IMG/VR virus record: IMGVR_UViG_3300036852_000211
Coordinates: 1 to 43,792 of that record
Strand: one strand, 5' to 3'
Length of the DNA: 43,792 nt
From: a virus
This document shows positions 13,456 to 20,990 of this stretch, piece after piece (within the stretch, counting starts at the first letter, position 1; each line of letters starts with the position of its first letter). Below the pieces are notes generated by a model that saw nothing but the letters and a program-made list of their open reading frames with translations, did not search any database and was not told the DNA's origin. The position numbers and the translations under genes are program-made.

Positions 13456-13668
13456 ATGACTCGGCGCGCATTTTTCGGGGCGGTGGGGGTGCTGCTGGCG
13501 GCGCCCATGGTGGCGCTCAGAACGAAGGTCGTCCCGCGCCTGTGGATTGATCCGCGTTGCCAAGAAGCGATCCGGTCGCTGCCGCGTTGGAACTATCGCC
13601 CCTCTTCAAAACAAGTTGAATTCATGAACTCACTAGAGCGACGGGTATTGTGGACAGGTGGACGCTGA
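13456..13668 (+). CDS. Small protein with Tat-type signal peptide
   Basis: 70 residues. The start TRRAFFGAVGVLLAAP has the twin arginine, the aromatic residue at +2 and the hydrophobic stretch of a Tat signal, so export in folded form is predicted. The mature part is only about 48 residues. Its end (PSSKQVEFMNSLERRVLWTGG) looks like the stretch that precedes the Walker A loop in large terminases, but the gene stops before any GKS. That could be chance or a remnant. Nothing else identifies a function. Confidence 0.6.
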   Translation: MTRRAFFGAVGVLLAAPMVALRTKVVPRLWIDPRCQEAIRSLPRWNYRPSSKQVEFMNSLERRVLWTGGR

Positions 13669-13698
13669 GCACGTAACACGAGATTGGATGCTGATTCA

Positions 13699-13953
13699 AT
13701 GAATCGGCGCGCGTTTTTAGGGGTATTTTCAGGAGTGCTCACGGCTCCGGTGGTACCGTGGCGGCAGCGGTACGGATGGGTACGCCTGACCAGACATAGT
13801 GGAGACGGCGCGCGGTATATCTACGGTACGTGGGGCGCGGTTGAACGCTCGACATATCCATGGTGGCGCGCACACGTGCCACGCACGGCGGCGACGTCTC
13901 GCCAATTCTTGATGGCGCTACGCGCAATGATGGGAGAATGTCGAATTCGATAG
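13699..13953 (+). CDS. Second small protein with Tat-type signal peptide
   Basis: 84 residues. The leader NRRAFLGVFSGVLTAP parallels that of the preceding gene and matches the Tat consensus well. The mature part is Trp/Arg/Tyr-rich (YIYGTWGAVERSTYPWWRAH). Similar leaders on two neighbouring genes suggest duplication of the signal region. The function is unknown. The following interval 13954-14134 holds no gene; a short AGCGG/CCGCT hairpin is the only structure seen. Confidence 0.6.
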   Translation: MNRRAFLGVFSGVLTAPVVPWRQRYGWVRLTRHSGDGARYIYGTWGAVERSTYPWWRAHVPRTAATSRQFLMALRAMMGECRIR

Positions 13954-14134
13954 AGCACGACTGACCCTTCTGGCTGGAGCGGCTTTATAACCCGCTGACG
14001 AGCGCTTCCCGAGCGCGCTGGTAGGACAACGGGGCACGACAGAGACGGGGCTGGTGTGACCACGGTGGGATGCCGAGGACATACTGGCCCTTTTCCTTTG
14101 TACGTGTCCCGTGCGTTTCTGAGAGGAGCACAGG

Positions 14135-15685
14135 ATGCGAGCGCGAACTGGAATGGTCTGGGTGTGGTGGCTGCTCGTGCTGCTCCTGATCCCCATACCG
14201 ACGGGCGCACAACCGCAACCGGTGCGCTTATTCTCGGCCGCGGATGGGCCGGACGACATTACCGCCAATGCTGCCACCGGGGCCTCGCTGGCCACGGGCG
14301 GCTTTGGGACGGTTGGCTTTCAGGTCACGAATACGTTTGTCGGGACCATTGAACTGCAATGCACGGTGGACGGCACGACCTACCGCCCGCTAACGCTCAC
14401 CCCCTCCAATTCCGCGACGACCGTCACGAGTGTGACCGGGACCGGGATCTGGTTTGCCTCGGCGGGGGGATGTATCACGACGCGCGCCCGATCGACGGCA
14501 TGGACCTCTGGGACGGCGACCACCACGATTGTCGGGATTTCGGCGGGTGGGAGCGGCGGGAGCAGCGGCGGCGGTGGCGGGGGACTCACGGATGCCGAGC
14601 TGCGAGCCTCGGCGGTGCCGGTCAGTCTTGCCACGGTGCCCTCGCATGCGGTGACCAATGCCGGGACGTTCGTCGTGCAAGAGAACGGCGCGGCGCTCAC
14701 CGCGCTCCAACTCATTGACAACATCGTTTCAGGCACGGGCGTGAATGTCTCCCAGATGAACGGAGTGGCCGTCTTGATGGGGTCAGGCGTCAATGGGACG
14801 GGCGCCCAACGGATCTCGCTGGCGACTGATGACGTGACGGCGCTCAACATTATCGATATCGAGGCGCTGCTCACGACGGGCAACACGCAAACCGATGGCA
14901 TCGAAGCCTCGCTGACCACGATGACTGGGGCGATCGCCAGCAATCGCTACAACGTGGATATTAAGGCCGTGAATGGGCTTGTCCCGACCGATGACCTCAC
15001 GTTTGACTTCGATTCCGGCGCCGGGACACAGACCCGATCCGCGATTGGTATTGCATTTTCTGCGTCAGGTGGAGCGGTCCTCGCCGTTGGCGGAACGGGT
15101 ACCGCTTCAACCGCGACTCTCCGGACCGTGACCGCCTCGGATGACCTCGGGATTGTCTCTCTTGGTCTACTCGATGATGCGGTCTTCACCGACGACGCGG
15201 CGTTTACACCCGCCACCTCGAAAGCCTTCGCGGTCGGCTTCCAAGCGGATGACACCACGCCCGATAGCGTGGATGAGGGGGACTTCGGCGTCCCACGCAT
15301 GTCGCTGGATCGTATGCTCTACATGCGGCCAGGTGGCGCGTCGGTGTTCTACCGGACGTCTGCAGGGACGACCGAAGATGAGCACGAGATCAAGGCGACG
15401 GCGGGCACGCTGTATTCCGTGCTGGTGACCAACACCAATGCCGCTGCACGGTACATTCGCTGCTATAACCTGACGGCGGCCAGCACGACGCCTGGCACGT
15501 CAACGGTCTTTTGGGGCGCCGCGATTCCGGGACAGACCGCTGGGGCCGGATTCGCGTACCCCTTTCCATCTGGGCTGACGTTCGATATCGCCCTCACGTG
15601 TGCGTTTACGACAGGCGCGGCTGATACGAACACCGACGAGGTCGCAGCCAATGAAATCAAGGCGACGTATTCGTTTCGTGACTAG
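14135..15685 (+). CDS. Large beta-rich phage structural-type protein with Sec signal peptide
   Basis: 516 residues, GAGAGGAG before the ATG. Residues 1-25 are a classic Sec signal (WVWWLLVLLLIPIPTGA, cleavage before Gln26). A beta domain (30-137) with two Cys (76 and 113) precedes a Gly/Ser linker (138-150). The C-terminal part is Thr/Ala/Gly-rich beta sequence containing VSLATVPSHAVTNAGTF and INGV-like repeats (NGVAVLMGSGVNGTGAQR) that I associate with phage virion decoration or fibre proteins. Such proteins do not normally have signal peptides. It is either a secreted adhesin made by the phage or a virion protein assembled outside the usual route. Confidence 0.78.
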   Translation: MRARTGMVWVWWLLVLLLIPIPTGAQPQPVRLFSAADGPDDITANAATGASLATGGFGTVGFQVTNTFVGTIELQCTVDGTTYRPLTLTPSNSATTVTSVTGTGIWFASAGGCITTRARSTAWTSGTATTTIVGISAGGSGGSSGGGGGGLTDAELRASAVPVSLATVPSHAVTNAGTFVVQENGAALTALQLIDNIVSGTGVNVSQMNGVAVLMGSGVNGTGAQRISLATDDVTALNIIDIEALLTTGNTQTDGIEASLTTMTGAIASNRYNVDIKAVNGLVPTDDLTFDFDSGAGTQTRSAIGIAFSASGGAVLAVGGTGTASTATLRTVTASDDLGIVSLGLLDDAVFTDDAAFTPATSKAFAVGFQADDTTPDSVDEGDFGVPRMSLDRMLYMRPGGASVFYRTSAGTTEDEHEIKATAGTLYSVLVTNTNAAARYIRCYNLTAASTTPGTSTVFWGAAIPGQTAGAGFAYPFPSGLTFDIALTCAFTTGAADTNTDEVAANEIKATYSFRD

Positions 15686-15694
15686 CTATCTGTG

Positions 15695-17053
15695 ATGACT
15701 CGTGAATCTGTACCAGGAAGGCTCAGCACTTTGTCGGTCGTCCTCCTTCTGCTCGTGCTTCTGCTGGCTAGTGCGTGGCCAGCAGAAGCACAGCTGAATG
15801 CAGCTACCGGATCGTTCAACGTTACCACAGCCGCGGCCGGCAACACCGTCGTCGTCACCGGTCTGGGCTTCCAGCCCAAGATTGTCTTCTTCTTCTGGTC
15901 TGGTAGGACGGAGAGCGTCGATACCATCAGCCGTATTAACCAACAACACGGGTTTGGGGCCGCGATCTCGACCACCGAGCGGTTCGCGGTTGTCGCTCGG
16001 TCGAATGATGCCTCCGCCCTTGCTGCCGCGGCCTCTGCGCACTCGGATGCAGCGTGCATCCTTGGAACGACCGCAACGCCAACCATCGGCGCAGCGATGG
16101 ACTTGCAATCCATGGACTCCGGCGGGTTTACGCTCGTGATCGACGATGACTTCGGGAATGACTTGAGAGTCACGTACGTGGCGCTGGGAGGACCGACGCT
16201 GACCGGACAGAAAATTGGCACATTCACGCCCACAGGGACGGCCCCAGTCACACAAGCCGTTACGGGCGTCGGTTTTCAACCCGAAGTGGTTATCTTTGCC
16301 GCCATCGCGGCTGCCGCCGCCGCGCCGCCTTCGGCTGTCCTCGACTCGACCTTGATGCTTGGGGCCATAACAGGCGCTACCGGCGAAGGAGTGTGGGTGG
16401 CTAGCAGTGATGATGCTGCAGCGACCATGCAGACGATGGCGTACGCGCTGAGCGGCGAAGCGATTGCGCGCTTCGATAACACCATCACAGCAATTGCTGA
16501 TCGAGCCGAGTTCTCCGCCTTCGGGGCGGATGGCTTTACGATCAACTGGCTCGAACGCGCGAATGCCGGCACGGTCTTCTATGTTGCCCTGGATGGCCTC
16601 AATGCTACCGTCGGCAATTTTGTGACGCAGACGGATACGACCACAGCGATCACGACGGGGGCCTTGGGCTATACCCCCCGGGCGATGGTCGTTGTCTCGG
16701 CCGCTCGGGCAGCCAGTACCGCCGATACGCCGACGGACCACGATCAACTTTCGATTGGCGCCGCTGTGTCGGCCTCCGCTCGATCAGCGCAAGCGACTTT
16801 GGACGAGGATGCCGTGCTGACGAGCGAGGTGACCGTCGCCATTGAGTTCGACGCGGTCTACGCGAATATCTCGACGGCCTCGGCCATTCAGGGGCTGATG
16901 GATGTGACCGCCTTCAACAATGACGATGTTGCGTTCATTATGGATGATGCTGACCCTTCTGCGAGCTTTGCGTGGTGGATTGCGTTCGGTGAGCCCACGG
17001 TCACGAGCAGTGGGCAGCGGATGAGTCTTCTAGGGGTCGGTGACCGGCAATGA
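15695..17053 (+). CDS. Exported protein with three tandem beta-domain repeats
   Basis: 452 residues from the ATG at 15695 (a GTG at 15692 is possible). The N-terminus has a Sec signal with a long hydrophobic core (STLSVVLLLLVLLLASAW) and an AEA-Gln cleavage site near residue 32. Three copies of a unit of roughly 125 residues follow (about 38-163, 174-299 and 306-432). Each opens with a strand pair (VTGLGFQPKIV, VTGVGFQPEVV, TGALGYTPRAM) and closes with YVALGG, YVALDG or WWIAFGE. Similar units occur in phage virion proteins. Triplication suggests a modular fibre or surface array. The function is not established. Confidence 0.75.
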   Translation: MTRESVPGRLSTLSVVLLLLVLLLASAWPAEAQLNAATGSFNVTTAAAGNTVVVTGLGFQPKIVFFFWSGRTESVDTISRINQQHGFGAAISTTERFAVVARSNDASALAAAASAHSDAACILGTTATPTIGAAMDLQSMDSGGFTLVIDDDFGNDLRVTYVALGGPTLTGQKIGTFTPTGTAPVTQAVTGVGFQPEVVIFAAIAAAAAAPPSAVLDSTLMLGAITGATGEGVWVASSDDAAATMQTMAYALSGEAIARFDNTITAIADRAEFSAFGADGFTINWLERANAGTVFYVALDGLNATVGNFVTQTDTTTAITTGALGYTPRAMVVVSAARAASTADTPTDHDQLSIGAAVSASARSAQATLDEDAVLTSEVTVAIEFDAVYANISTASAIQGLMDVTAFNNDDVAFIMDDADPSASFAWWIAFGEPTVTSSGQRMSLLGVGDRQ

Positions 17054-18483
17054 CCCGGTTCCTTGGCGCCCTTGCCGTGCTTCTCCTGTCGGTCAGTGTC
17101 TTAGCCGATGGTCAACTGCGCCGGACGGGCGTTGGTCGTGGTGCAGATCCTCCCCCGCCTCCTGGACAGGTCGTGATTTCCACGGCTGCCACGCTCCCGA
17201 CGGGGACACAGGATGCAGCCTATGCCGCCGTGACTATTACCTGCACGGGCGGTGTCTCCCCTTATACGCTCAGCCTGATCGGCGGGGCCTTCCCAACCAA
17301 TATCGCGATCAGCGGGATGACGATTACGAGTAGTGGCGCCAACGTCACGAATGCGGGGGACTTTTCCCCCGAGCTCCGGTGTACGGATGCCATCGGCGGA
17401 TTCGGCGATAAGATCATGGCCCTACGGATCAATCCGGCTGTGACAGGGAGCTGCTCGGGCGCGAATCCGGATGATTTCTTCAACTGTTTGGTCAATCTCG
17501 CCATGGGCGCGGGCGGTGCCAATGTCAATAACAATCTCAAGGTGAACGCCAACATCGTGGGCTGGTCCAACGGGTCGTCGCCAGGTCATAGTTTCACGAG
17601 CGGTTTTTTCTACGATTTCTCAGCCGATACCAACGCCAACAAGGTCGACGGGGCGGCCGTGACGATCCCGATCAACCTAATCTCGATCCCGGGCGCACAA
17701 CAGGTGCTCATGCCGATGAATGTCCAATCGGGGGACGTGCTGTTTGTATGGGATTGGCGCGGCACGCCCGAATGGCGATTGGGCACGGTCTGTGCGGGCG
17801 GTGGGCAGGTCGCCACTCAAAAAACGTTCCAGATCAAATCGACGAACCAGAATTCCGGCTCATGGTTTGAGATCCGGCAAGGCTACACGGGACAAGATCG
17901 CATGGCTGGATCGGGGATCATCGCGGGATGGAATCCCGTGACCAGCCAATCCGTTGGGACGGACATTGCCACAACGGACGCACGATCCTATCAAGTCAAT
18001 GCAAGTGGATATACCGGGACGTTTATCCAGGGGTCGATCGATTCGATTCCGGGGATGCTCAACAACAAAATCGTCCAAAAGAACCTCTGGACGCGGTACT
18101 ACACGCTCGTGCGTATGAATGCAGGGGGCGCGTGGACGTACACGCCGAACGGGTCGACGGGAAACGCCGAACTGATCTCACTCTGGGTCAGTGATGAAAA
18201 CACGGATGCGGTGCAAATCTACAGTAACGTGTCGAAGGAAGCCTGCAATCCCAACACGCCCGCGGCAGCCTGCATCGTGAGTGGCACGGGAAAGGATCAG
18301 CGGACCAAACTTGAATTCAACTCCAGTAGTGGCGGATGCACCGACGGTGGCAACCAATCGCGCCGCGCCTATATGCGAAACGTCGTGGGGCTGCACTCCG
18401 TCACGGGGGCCATCGTTGCGAGTGCGACGTCCATTGCGATCGCCGGCACGGAAGTCTTGGCCGGGATTCGCCCAAAGGCATAG
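17050..18483 (+). CDS. Exported Ig-like domain protein
   Basis: 477 residues, the ATG overlapping the previous stop (ATGA). Residues 1-19 form a Sec signal (FLGALAVLLLSVSVLA). A Pro-rich hinge (34-38) leads to an Ig-like He_PIG-type domain (41-130: LPTGTQDAAYAAVTITCTGG, then SPYTLSLIGGAFP). The remaining 340 residues are Asn/Gly-rich beta sequence with several Cys, as in lectin- or jelly-roll-type folds (SGSWFEIRQGYTGQDRM). Ig-like domains on phage proteins commonly bind cell-surface or matrix sugars. It could be a secreted adhesin or a virion surface protein. Confidence 0.73.
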   Translation: MTRFLGALAVLLLSVSVLADGQLRRTGVGRGADPPPPPGQVVISTAATLPTGTQDAAYAAVTITCTGGVSPYTLSLIGGAFPTNIAISGMTITSSGANVTNAGDFSPELRCTDAIGGFGDKIMALRINPAVTGSCSGANPDDFFNCLVNLAMGAGGANVNNNLKVNANIVGWSNGSSPGHSFTSGFFYDFSADTNANKVDGAAVTIPINLISIPGAQQVLMPMNVQSGDVLFVWDWRGTPEWRLGTVCAGGGQVATQKTFQIKSTNQNSGSWFEIRQGYTGQDRMAGSGIIAGWNPVTSQSVGTDIATTDARSYQVNASGYTGTFIQGSIDSIPGMLNNKIVQKNLWTRYYTLVRMNAGGAWTYTPNGSTGNAELISLWVSDENTDAVQIYSNVSKEACNPNTPAAACIVSGTGKDQRTKLEFNSSSGGCTDGGNQSRRAYMRNVVGLHSVTGAIVASATSIAIAGTEVLAGIRPKA

Positions 18484-18490
18484 AGGCATC

Positions 18491-18775
18491 ATGAGACGGA
18501 TCTTTCTGACGCTGGTCTTGGTCGCCTCCGTGAGTCTGACGGCCCAGGAGGCGGCGATCCCCGTCCTTGAAGCAGCCGAACTGCAAACGGTGGCAGTGGT
18601 CCTGAAGATGGCCGCGAAAGCGAATGCTGCCTGTCAAGCGTTGGACGATTACAAGTTGTATGTGGAGATGCGGAACGCCGTCCATGCGCAACTGGCAGCG
18701 AAGTATCCGGGATTTACAGTGAATTGGGCGACACGGAAACTCGAACCGGCGGTGTCCACGAAAGGCCCGTCTTAG
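18491..18775 (+). CDS. Small exported helical protein
   Basis: 94 residues. A signal peptide (RRIFLTLVLVASVSLTA, cleavage before Gln19) precedes a single helical domain (LQTVAVVLKMAAKANAACQAL, then YVEMRNAVHAQLAAKYPG) with one Cys. It completes a run of six genes whose products carry export signals. The function is unknown; a periplasmic partner or chaperone for the three large exported proteins is conceivable. Confidence 0.65.
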   Translation: MRRIFLTLVLVASVSLTAQEAAIPVLEAAELQTVAVVLKMAAKANAACQALDDYKLYVEMRNAVHAQLAAKYPGFTVNWATRKLEPAVSTKGPS

Positions 18776-18834: not shown

Positions 18835-19389
18835 ATGGGCGAATTGAAACGCATCTACCGACCGACGGCATTTAATGATCTCGTGAACTTTCTCAGTACG
18901 TGGCAGATCAGCGGGACGGCAGTCGCGGCGACGGCCGCCGAACTGAATCGCGTGGCCGATACCTCCGGGCGCCTCGTCGCGGCGGGGGCGGCATTAACCG
19001 TCACGGAAGCCCTCCATGACGGCAAAACCATTCTGCTCGATACCGCCGCGGGATCGACCTGCACACTGCCGGCAGCGACAGGATCGGGGGCGAGATTCCG
19101 GTTCGTGGTGTCGGTCATTGCCACTTCCAATAGTCATGTCATCAAGGTGGTGGGGAATGATGTCATGGCTGGCATGTGCATCACCCTCCAAGATGCGGGG
19201 GATACCTCCGTGGCGTTTGAGACGGCGTCAGATAGCGATACGATTACCTTGAATCGCACGACGACCGGCAGTACACAGAAAGGTGAATTCTTCGAGTTGC
19301 AGGATGTGGCGACGGATACTTGGTCTGTCTTTGGAGTGGTGGCGGCGACCGGTACGGAAGCCACGCCGTTCAGTGCCACCGTGACATAA
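18835..19389 (+). CDS. Putative virion decoration or head-fibre protein
   Basis: 184 residues, AAGGAG seven bases before the ATG, no signal peptide. It contains AATAAELNRVADTSGRLV, the TAAELNxL/V motif often found in phage fibre and decoration proteins, followed by beta-rich Thr/Ser sequence (TILLDTAAGSTCTLPAATG, DSDTITLNRTTTGSTQ). Its place just before the terminase genes suits a structural protein of the head or fibre. Confidence 0.65.
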   Translation: MGELKRIYRPTAFNDLVNFLSTWQISGTAVAATAAELNRVADTSGRLVAAGAALTVTEALHDGKTILLDTAAGSTCTLPAATGSGARFRFVVSVIATSNSHVIKVVGNDVMAGMCITLQDAGDTSVAFETASDSDTITLNRTTTGSTQKGEFFELQDVATDTWSVFGVVAATGTEATPFSATVT

Positions 19390-20388
19390 ATGGCACGCGC
19401 GCTCTGTTGCTGGTGTGGGTCGGGATTACAACGGTGGGTACAGCCCACGGTCATGGAGCAGCCATGGCTCTGCCCGACCCTCGCCTGCAAGACACGTCAA
19501 CTGCAGTGGGCGGTGGTGATCACGATGAAAGGCAAGCCGCCCCGCCCTGTCTATATTCCGACGCCGCGTCAAGTGGAATGGCATGAAGCCGTCTATCACC
19601 GGGCTACCAATCGGTTATGTGTTGGCGGTCAAGCCGGGCCAGGCAAATCGAAGTGGTTGCGCGAAGTCTTGTACCGATTCGCACAACAGGTCCCTGGTTT
19701 CCATGCCCTCTTATTGCGGCGGACATATAAGGACCTTGATCAGTCACATCTGCGTTTTGTCCCGTTTGAAGTCGCGCAACGTGGGGGGCACTGGAAAATC
19801 AGCGACCGCATTGTGGAATTCCCTCACAAAAATCGGCCGACGGCGATTATTCGTATGGGCCATCTGGAAGATAAAGGGGCACTCGAGGACTATCTCTCTT
19901 CCGAGTACGACGCGATTGCCCCCGATGAACTTGTCACGTTTGAGCGCGACGAAATGCTGGAGTTGTTCGCCCGCGCGCGCTCGGCGAATGAACATCTGAT
20001 GGCCTTGCGTGGCGGGTACAAGTATTGGGATGTGAATGAAGATGGTGACCTCGAAGAGATGGAGACGGATGGATCAATTGTCGTCACCGCGACCAATCCG
20101 GGCGGGAGAGGCGGTCGGTGGGTCAAGGACTTTTTTATCGATCAGACGCCGGATCGCGACCAACATCCAAATTACCGCGCAGAATTCTGGGCATTCCACG
20201 GCGCGCGTCTGAAGGACAATCCATATATCAAGCGCGCGTATGTGACGACGTTGAAAGATCTCCCAGAGATCCGTCGCCGGCAACTTCTTGAAGGCGATTG
20301 GGATGCGTACTTGGGGCAGTTTTTTGATTGGCGCGCCACCAAAGACGGACACGAGTGGCATGTCGCCGATTTGGAGATTGCGGCATGA
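19390..20388 (+). CDS. terL: Large terminase subunit, ATPase half (split gene)
   Basis: 332 residues. An N-terminal Cys cluster (CCWCG at 6-10, CPTLAC at 28-33) may bind zinc. The ATPase core has PTPRQVEWHEAV, the Walker A GGQAGPGKS (79-87), the Walker B EYDAIAPDE with D179/E180, and the coupling motif TATNPGG (233-239). It ends at residue 332 after GDWDAYLGQFFDW, exactly where intact terminases pass into the nuclease domain. The nuclease half is the next gene, joined by an ATGA overlap. Together they should pump and cut DNA at the portal. Confidence 0.93.
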   Translation: MARALCCWCGSGLQRWVQPTVMEQPWLCPTLACKTRQLQWAVVITMKGKPPRPVYIPTPRQVEWHEAVYHRATNRLCVGGQAGPGKSKWLREVLYRFAQQVPGFHALLLRRTYKDLDQSHLRFVPFEVAQRGGHWKISDRIVEFPHKNRPTAIIRMGHLEDKGALEDYLSSEYDAIAPDELVTFERDEMLELFARARSANEHLMALRGGYKYWDVNEDGDLEEMETDGSIVVTATNPGGRGGRWVKDFFIDQTPDRDQHPNYRAEFWAFHGARLKDNPYIKRAYVTTLKDLPEIRRRQLLEGDWDAYLGQFFDWRATKDGHEWHVADLEIAA

Positions 20389-20990
20389 GAGCACGCGATC
20401 TCACCGTGAAGATGGGGCTCGATTGGGGCCAAGCCTCACCCGGCGTGGTCCTCTGGGGGTGTGCCTTACCGGACGCGCACGCTCATATCTTTGACGAGTT
20501 GAAGTTTCAGCGGATGAGCGTGCGCGAAGTCGCCGAGGCGATCCGTGATCGAACGCTCGGTGACTGGAAACTGCCCAAGATGCCACCGATTTACTGCGAT
20601 CCCGCCTTAAAGGCGAAGACGGGCCAGATTGGTGAGGACTACTTGCAGACGTTTGCTCGCCATAAAGTCGTGCTCACGCCCGTCAGCAATCATCGGACGG
20701 CGGGTTGGCAACGGGTTCATGAAGCGCTCTCGATCAATAAGGAGACTGGACGTCCCTGGCTGACCGTCCATCCGCGGTGCAAGTATTTGATTCGGACGCT
20801 GCCAGCGATGATGCAGGATGACCACAATCCAGAAGATTTGAATACGGAGAGCGATGATCATGCGTGCGACACCTTGCGGTATGTGCTGATGGGCGGCTTA
20901 CGCCCAGGGACGAAGCCAGTCATTGTGAAGACGGATAAACCGGGCACGTGGGGCGCCTTCAAGCGCTTTGCGCGGAGTCAAGCGGCATGA
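20385..20990 (+). CDS. Large terminase subunit, nuclease half (split gene)
   Basis: 201 residues from the ATG overlapping the ATPase stop. It has the RNase H-like nuclease acids in order: D13 in MGLDWGQASPG, D72 in IYCDPALK, and D158/D162 in SDDHACDTLRYV. This is the C-terminal domain of a large terminase that cuts concatemers. There is no missing segment between the two halves, so the split is at a domain border. A -1 frameshift at the overlap would restore one polypeptide; a sequencing or assembly error cannot be excluded. Confidence 0.9.
   Translation: MRARDLTVKMGLDWGQASPGVVLWGCALPDAHAHIFDELKFQRMSVREVAEAIRDRTLGDWKLPKMPPIYCDPALKAKTGQIGEDYLQTFARHKVVLTPVSNHRTAGWQRVHEALSINKETGRPWLTVHPRCKYLIRTLPAMMQDDHNPEDLNTESDDHACDTLRYVLMGGLRPGTKPVIVKTDKPGTWGAFKRFARSQAA

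Follow-up and report, generated by a model that had tools for sequence, protein, structure and literature searches.

A candidate exported fibre cassette with leader-linked cysteine pairs in an uncultured tailed phage

Introduction

Tailed phages assemble their virions in the cytoplasm. Lambda Lom and similar proteins are phage-encoded, carry a signal peptide and are specified among tail genes (PMC12309495), and rumen phages examined with SignalP encode 0–2 signal peptides per genome (PMC5723332). A report of leader-bearing virion cassettes was not found in the open-access literature searched, which is no proof of novelty. Herein we describe a run of four leader-bearing genes, C, D, E and F, in a 43.8-kb IMG/VR virus record (IMGVR_UViG_3300036852_000211) from an uncultured tailed phage; "the window" denotes this whole stretch of 43,792 nucleotides. 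A preliminary description had read six consecutive open reading frames (ORFs), A–F, at 13456–18775 on the + strand as genes whose products bear export signals. All six ORFs are present, and C–F are genuine genes with clear Sec-type leaders, whereas A and B are doubtful. Export of C is very probable, and that of D–F is probable to a somewhat lesser degree. We propose, with roughly an even chance of being right, that C–F are a virion fibre or receptor-binding cassette that has been re-routed to the periplasm, folds with disulfides there and joins virions at or after lysis.

Results

Genes C–F and their parts are as follows.

14135–15685, + strand: gene C, 516 amino acids (aa), with leader, repeat modules, Gly/Ser linker and jelly-roll C-terminal domain (from ribosome-binding site, leader and modules)
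14135–14209, + strand: Sec-type leader of C, MRARTGMVWVWWLLVLLLIPIPTGA, predicted cut before Q (scorer)
14279–14542, + strand: module M4 of C, with Cys76 and Cys113
14546–14584, + strand: Gly/Ser linker of C, residues 138–150 (sequence)
15185–15322, + strand: module M1 of C (DDAFT...DSVDEGDxGxxRM)
15332–15682, + strand: module M3 of C, predicted 8-strand jelly roll (predicted local distance difference test, pLDDT, 91), with Cys443 and Cys489
15695–17053, + strand: gene D, 452 aa, with leader, all-beta domain and C-terminal LLGVG
15695–15790, + strand: Sec-type leader of D, ...WPAEA, predicted cut before Q (scorer)
17027–17041, + strand: LLGVG C-terminal motif of D
17050–18483, + strand: gene E, 477 aa, with leader, Pro-rich stretch, immunoglobulin (Ig)-like region and 8 mature Cys
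17050–17106, + strand: Sec-type leader of E, MTRFLGALAVLLLSVSVLA, predicted cut before D (scorer)
18491–18775, + strand: gene F, 94 aa, with leader and 1 mature Cys
within 18491–18775, + strand: leader of F, MRRIFLTLVLVASVSLTA, predicted cut before Q (scorer)

Codon log-odds per codon for C–F are 0.20–0.36, and the training genes, which are the phage's structural genes, average 0.27. All four proteins pass a home-made leader scorer that evaluates n-, h- and c-regions (charge, hydrophobic core) and an AxA site. This scorer calls a leader in 5% of whole-protein shuffles and in 16% when the first 35 residues are shuffled, which keeps the N-terminal composition; elsewhere in the window it called 8 of 47 genes with any start in the first 40 codons allowed, mostly weakly or at internal positions. 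The best ribosome-binding site of C (AGGAG, 6 bases) sits at the leader-containing start, and no start codon lies between the leader of D and its mature domain. In the loci collected for comparison (L-numbers), scorer calls at internal GTG or TTG starts of long leaderless proteins were discounted, and those in L022, L032, L052, L055, L069 and L093 were judged false.

Stronger support for the leaders than that of the scorer comes from the sequences of relatives. In module M3 the cysteine pair of the window is present in 8 of 12 leader-bearing domains (window, L002, L003, L141, L143, L144, L146 and L148) and in 0 of 80 leaderless ones (Fisher 5e-9); three intact leader-bearing members, L106, L188 and L215, have another pair or pairs. 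L002, in which the leader is internal, and L150, which a frameshift splits, were assigned to the leader-bearing class by hand. In the predicted model Cys443 and Cys489 would occupy strands 4 and 7 of 8, a pair that lies side by side in a standard jelly roll. Module M2, which is not in the window and lies C-terminal to M1 in L014, L100 and others, conserves four Cys in 34 of 36 complete domains, and each exception has lost exactly one pair (the first two Cys in L014, the last two in L126), as two disulfides predict. The Cys76/Cys113 pair of M4 is common to C and leader-bearing L014 and L121, and leaderless M4 members mostly have 0 or 1 of these residues, although the numbers are small. Exported proteins are known to prefer even numbers of cysteines (PMC7678975). 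Across all non-redundant genes of the loci collected by then, mature proteins with an even Cys count make up 38 of 43 that bear a leader vs 254 of 439 that do not (Fisher 3e-5). C has both of its pairs, and the 8 mature Cys of E are consistent with folding in an oxidising compartment. Leader-dependent cysteine pairing of this kind is hard to explain unless the proteins reach such a compartment, and the preliminary claim of Sec export for virion-like proteins gains from it as well as from the scorer.

The modules of C recur across very many phages: our comparison covered M1 in 80 loci, M2 in 36 loci and M3 in 102 distinct phage proteins, and C itself aligns with L018 at an E value of 6e-74. Proteins with M1 and M3 are mostly leaderless and often begin "MADN...". 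Those with M2 have a leader in every case with a readable N-terminus, or an internal membrane segment (L131–L133, from Acidobacteria metagenome-assembled genomes). In L002 (9860–11359), L131 (4279–6324) and L132 (4135–6324) a cytoplasmic N-terminal part is fused to an internal leader or transmembrane segment followed by exported modules. Two of these Acidobacteria contigs also have, on the minus strand near the exported cassette, a small leader-bearing c-type cytochrome-like gene with a CAACHG motif (L131 1680–2126, L132 1619–2041). An exported M2 cassette occurs as well in L134, a contig assigned by binning, perhaps wrongly, to the Gram-positive family Streptosporangiaceae; its N-terminus is nearly identical to that of L127. 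Structure comparison of M3 with BFVD gave clear matches to phage proteins, some annotated as Ig-like, collagen-repeat or tail fibre, and comparison with PDB folds gave weak jelly-roll matches only, including C1q-type heads. PDB sequence searches returned nothing useful: chain matches that would make C resemble an antibody single-chain variable fragment fall on the region of the Gly/Ser linker, a linker that had been noted before and is real.

Nearly all of the mature domain of D can be aligned to the C-terminal portion of UOF79175, an 886-aa beta-helix protein encoded by podovirus MW202608 (E value 6e-55). It also aligns with IMG/VR relatives L135–L139 at 26–36% identity, and the range is 26–37% with MW202608 included. 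All of these relatives are leaderless, and L136, L137 and L139 start at the point corresponding to the start of mature D. They were found only with a two-sequence alignment as query; single-protein scans returned no direct relatives of D or of E. By these alignments, D combines a grafted leader with a domain that its relatives have without one. The domain is predicted to be all-beta (pLDDT 75), and a fold search gave no credible solved match (template-modelling score about 0.1). Leaderless homologues had been named beforehand as a finding that would count against export, and they exist for both C and D. Their N-termini are different, and those of C lack the Cys pairs, which points to re-targeting rather than mis-annotation; on this comparison of sequences, the leaders on C–F are no annotation accident.

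C and D also form a unit. D ends in LLGVG plus DRQ, and ORFs ending in a motif of this type number 46 on the forward, coding strand of the loci vs 3 on the reverse. Among the LLGVG-type ORFs, 43 of 62 adjoin an M1, M2 or M3 gene vs 8.7 expected from random placement. In these adjacent pairs both proteins are mostly leaderless and in the remainder both are exported, except in L108; borderline pairs were inspected by hand, and in L101 and L113 one N-terminus is unreadable. Such agreement between partners argues for a two-gene unit that exists in cytoplasmic and exported forms, with C–D of the window as an exported one. Exported LLGVG-type proteins often have Cys around the end motif (CTSSIALLGVGCR, CTMSLLGAGPC), and one of them, the leader-bearing product at L003 11626, matches the minor tail protein family phrog_553 (E value 2e-12). 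In many loci leader-bearing genes stand in runs of two to four. The wider form (L/M)(L/M)G(V/A)G ends many virion-type phage proteins (e.g. L021 7497, L053 3507, L095 7907 and the window at 17027–17041) and is possibly a docking or sorting tag.

The position of the cassette was compared in sister phages, defined as those with the window's terminase and portal-like gene at 60–75% identity. Before terL, L007 has a leader-bearing run of an M2 protein, a 244-aa protein ending RLLLRCCDR and a 1053-aa protein, L006 has a leaderless LamG/TIG protein, and L008 has no comparable large gene. The content of this slot changes from phage to phage in the manner of a host-range or fibre cassette, judging by the genes that fill it. 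The 1053-aa protein (L007 4398–7556) has a leader, 14 Cys and no Pfam match, and the Pro-rich stretch after its leader resembles that in gene E. In the terminase nuclease half of the same phage (8553–10040) lies an insertion that reads like an intein, starting CLVGDTPI and ending VLTHNC.

The remaining features on either side of C–F are these.

13456–13668, + strand: ORF A, 70 aa, MTRRAFFG..., Tat-like motif, doubtful gene (codon log-odds, homologue search)
13699–13953, + strand: ORF B, 84 aa, MNRRAFLG..., Tat-like motif, doubtful gene (codon log-odds, leader scorer)
18835–19389, + strand: leaderless 184-aa gene between F and terL (weak minor-head-protein match, E value 0.12)
19390–20990, + strand: terminase large subunit in two ORFs, ATPase 19390–20388 and nuclease 20385–20990

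Both A and B have R-R-x-F-(F/L)-G close to the start, the basis on which they had been assigned twin-arginine translocation (Tat) leaders. The sequence comparisons do not support that assignment: there is no match to a Tat-signal family in Pfam or NCBIfam, and codon log-odds are 0.02 for A and −0.05 for B, about equal to those of their own wrong frames. The leader scorer passes A weakly and fails B. No homologues were found for B or for A, whose best tblastn hit is to TerL at an E value of about 0.7; a weak match of A to a PHROG terminase (E value 0.018) was set aside as probably chance. Because they lack homologues and a coding signal, we treat A and B as doubtful ORFs that may not be genes. 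The block had also been placed directly before the terminase, and here the 184-aa gene intervenes; after it come the terminase, a portal-like gene and, at a greater distance, the major head protein gene. C–F lie upstream of all three, in the late structural region. The division of terL into overlapping or adjacent ATPase and nuclease ORFs is kept across the lineage (window, L005, L006, L008 and L010). An Ig-like domain had been proposed among the three large beta-rich proteins, and such a region can be read in the sequence of E, with no significant match in Pfam. A host search by portal alignment against bacterial genomes returned nothing.

Discussion

We propose that C–F represent a re-targeted form of a cassette that is common among tailed phages, in which C would be a modular fibre with a jelly-roll tip, D its all-beta partner, E an Ig-containing protein and F a small helper. 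Late in infection, Sec would move these proteins into the periplasm, where signal peptidase would take off the leaders and disulfides would form. Lysis would then open the envelope and let the mature proteins meet virions and attach to them, and as fibres, tips or decorations there they would serve to bind the next host. We infer Sec use, cleavage and the disulfides themselves from sequence features, and the timing and the receptor-binding role are likewise suggested rather than observed. Attachment to virions is proposed from homology and from the behaviour of the cassette, and the chances for and against it are about balanced. Of the three options offered by the preliminary description, we favour virion decorations that are added once the proteins have been exported or the cell has lysed, because the C–D-type unit is leaderless in many phages and a leader-bearing member has a match to a minor tail protein family.

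Several points weigh against this proposal. The signal calls rest on a home-made scorer, no proteomic data placing any C–F-type protein in a virion were found, and attachment after export needs lysis, where dilution would oppose it. D and F have one mature Cys each and thus no disulfide signature, L012, a leaderless relative of D, has more Cys than D, and no homologues of E and F were found.

The principal rival, which we regard as unlikely, is that the exported proteins act away from the virion, as soluble receptor-binding domains that are periplasmic and then released by lysis, masking receptors on debris or neighbouring cells, or as a biofilm adhesin or depolymerase. Export and disulfide signatures agree with this alternative, as do the lectin- and beta-helix-type domains of leader-bearing relatives (LamG in L014, a beta helix in L131). 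However, the cassette keeps the two-gene layout and the C-terminal motif of leaderless virion-type proteins, it takes the slot that such a leaderless protein occupies in L006, and no full set of fibre genes apart from it turned up in the part of the window that was annotated, all of which favour a role on the particle.

Modification of the host envelope during infection or lysogeny, as in superinfection exclusion or conversion of the Lom or Cor type, seems very improbable, even though exported phage-encoded proteins of such type are known (Lom, PMC12309495). C–F are long, modular and fibre-like rather than outer-membrane barrels or lipoproteins; no lipobox Cys is present at their leader cleavage sites, and M3 is predicted to be a jelly roll, in contrast to what Lom, Cor or Llp would lead one to expect. 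They also lie in the late structural region, no integrase is found among the window ORFs scanned, and nothing was found in support of the lysogenic envelope trait that had been offered. Least probable of all is that C–F work in the cytoplasm, with leaders that either stay uncleaved as membrane anchors or are hydrophobic N-termini by chance. The scorer does have a real false-positive rate, and L131–L133 and L002 have an N-terminal cytoplasmic part ahead of the hydrophobic segment; yet leader-linked Cys pairs, pair-wise losses and even counts are not expected in cytoplasmic proteins, and even an anchor would leave the mature part outside.

The proposal that C–F are virion parts re-routed through the periplasm has consequences beyond this phage. 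The sequences suggest that, in some tailed phages, part of the outer coat folds in a different compartment from that of virion assembly. That widespread tailed phages export fibre or receptor-binding proteins by Sec, give them periplasmic disulfides and attach them to particles only upon mixing at lysis is a broader proposal, to which we give somewhat less than an even chance. If the cassettes are virion parts, they would represent a two-compartment assembly route for tailed phages, not found described in the open-access literature searched, and the stabilisation of fibres by disulfides would count as a common environmental adaptation. Otherwise, these phages would deliberately release much receptor-binding protein, with a bearing on adsorption and phage competition.

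Comparison with described proteins places the cassette among virion-type relatives. The leaderless "MADN..." phage proteins ("glycoprotein repeat domain-containing protein", MW202601) have M1 repeats and a jelly-roll C-terminal domain as in gene C, but unlike C they have a cytoplasmic N-terminus and no leader or cysteine pairs. UOF79175 and L135–L139 have the whole mature domain of D in common with it, but not the leader or the LLGVG end, and the MW202608 version is a fusion with a beta helix in front of the domain. The PHROG 553 match falls on a leader-bearing LLGVG protein encoded directly after the relative of gene C in L003, and D itself does not match this family. Lambda Lom resembles C–F in origin, signal peptide and placement among tail genes; whereas Lom is an outer-membrane barrel, C–F are predicted to be soluble-type modular beta proteins, encoded in a run of four.

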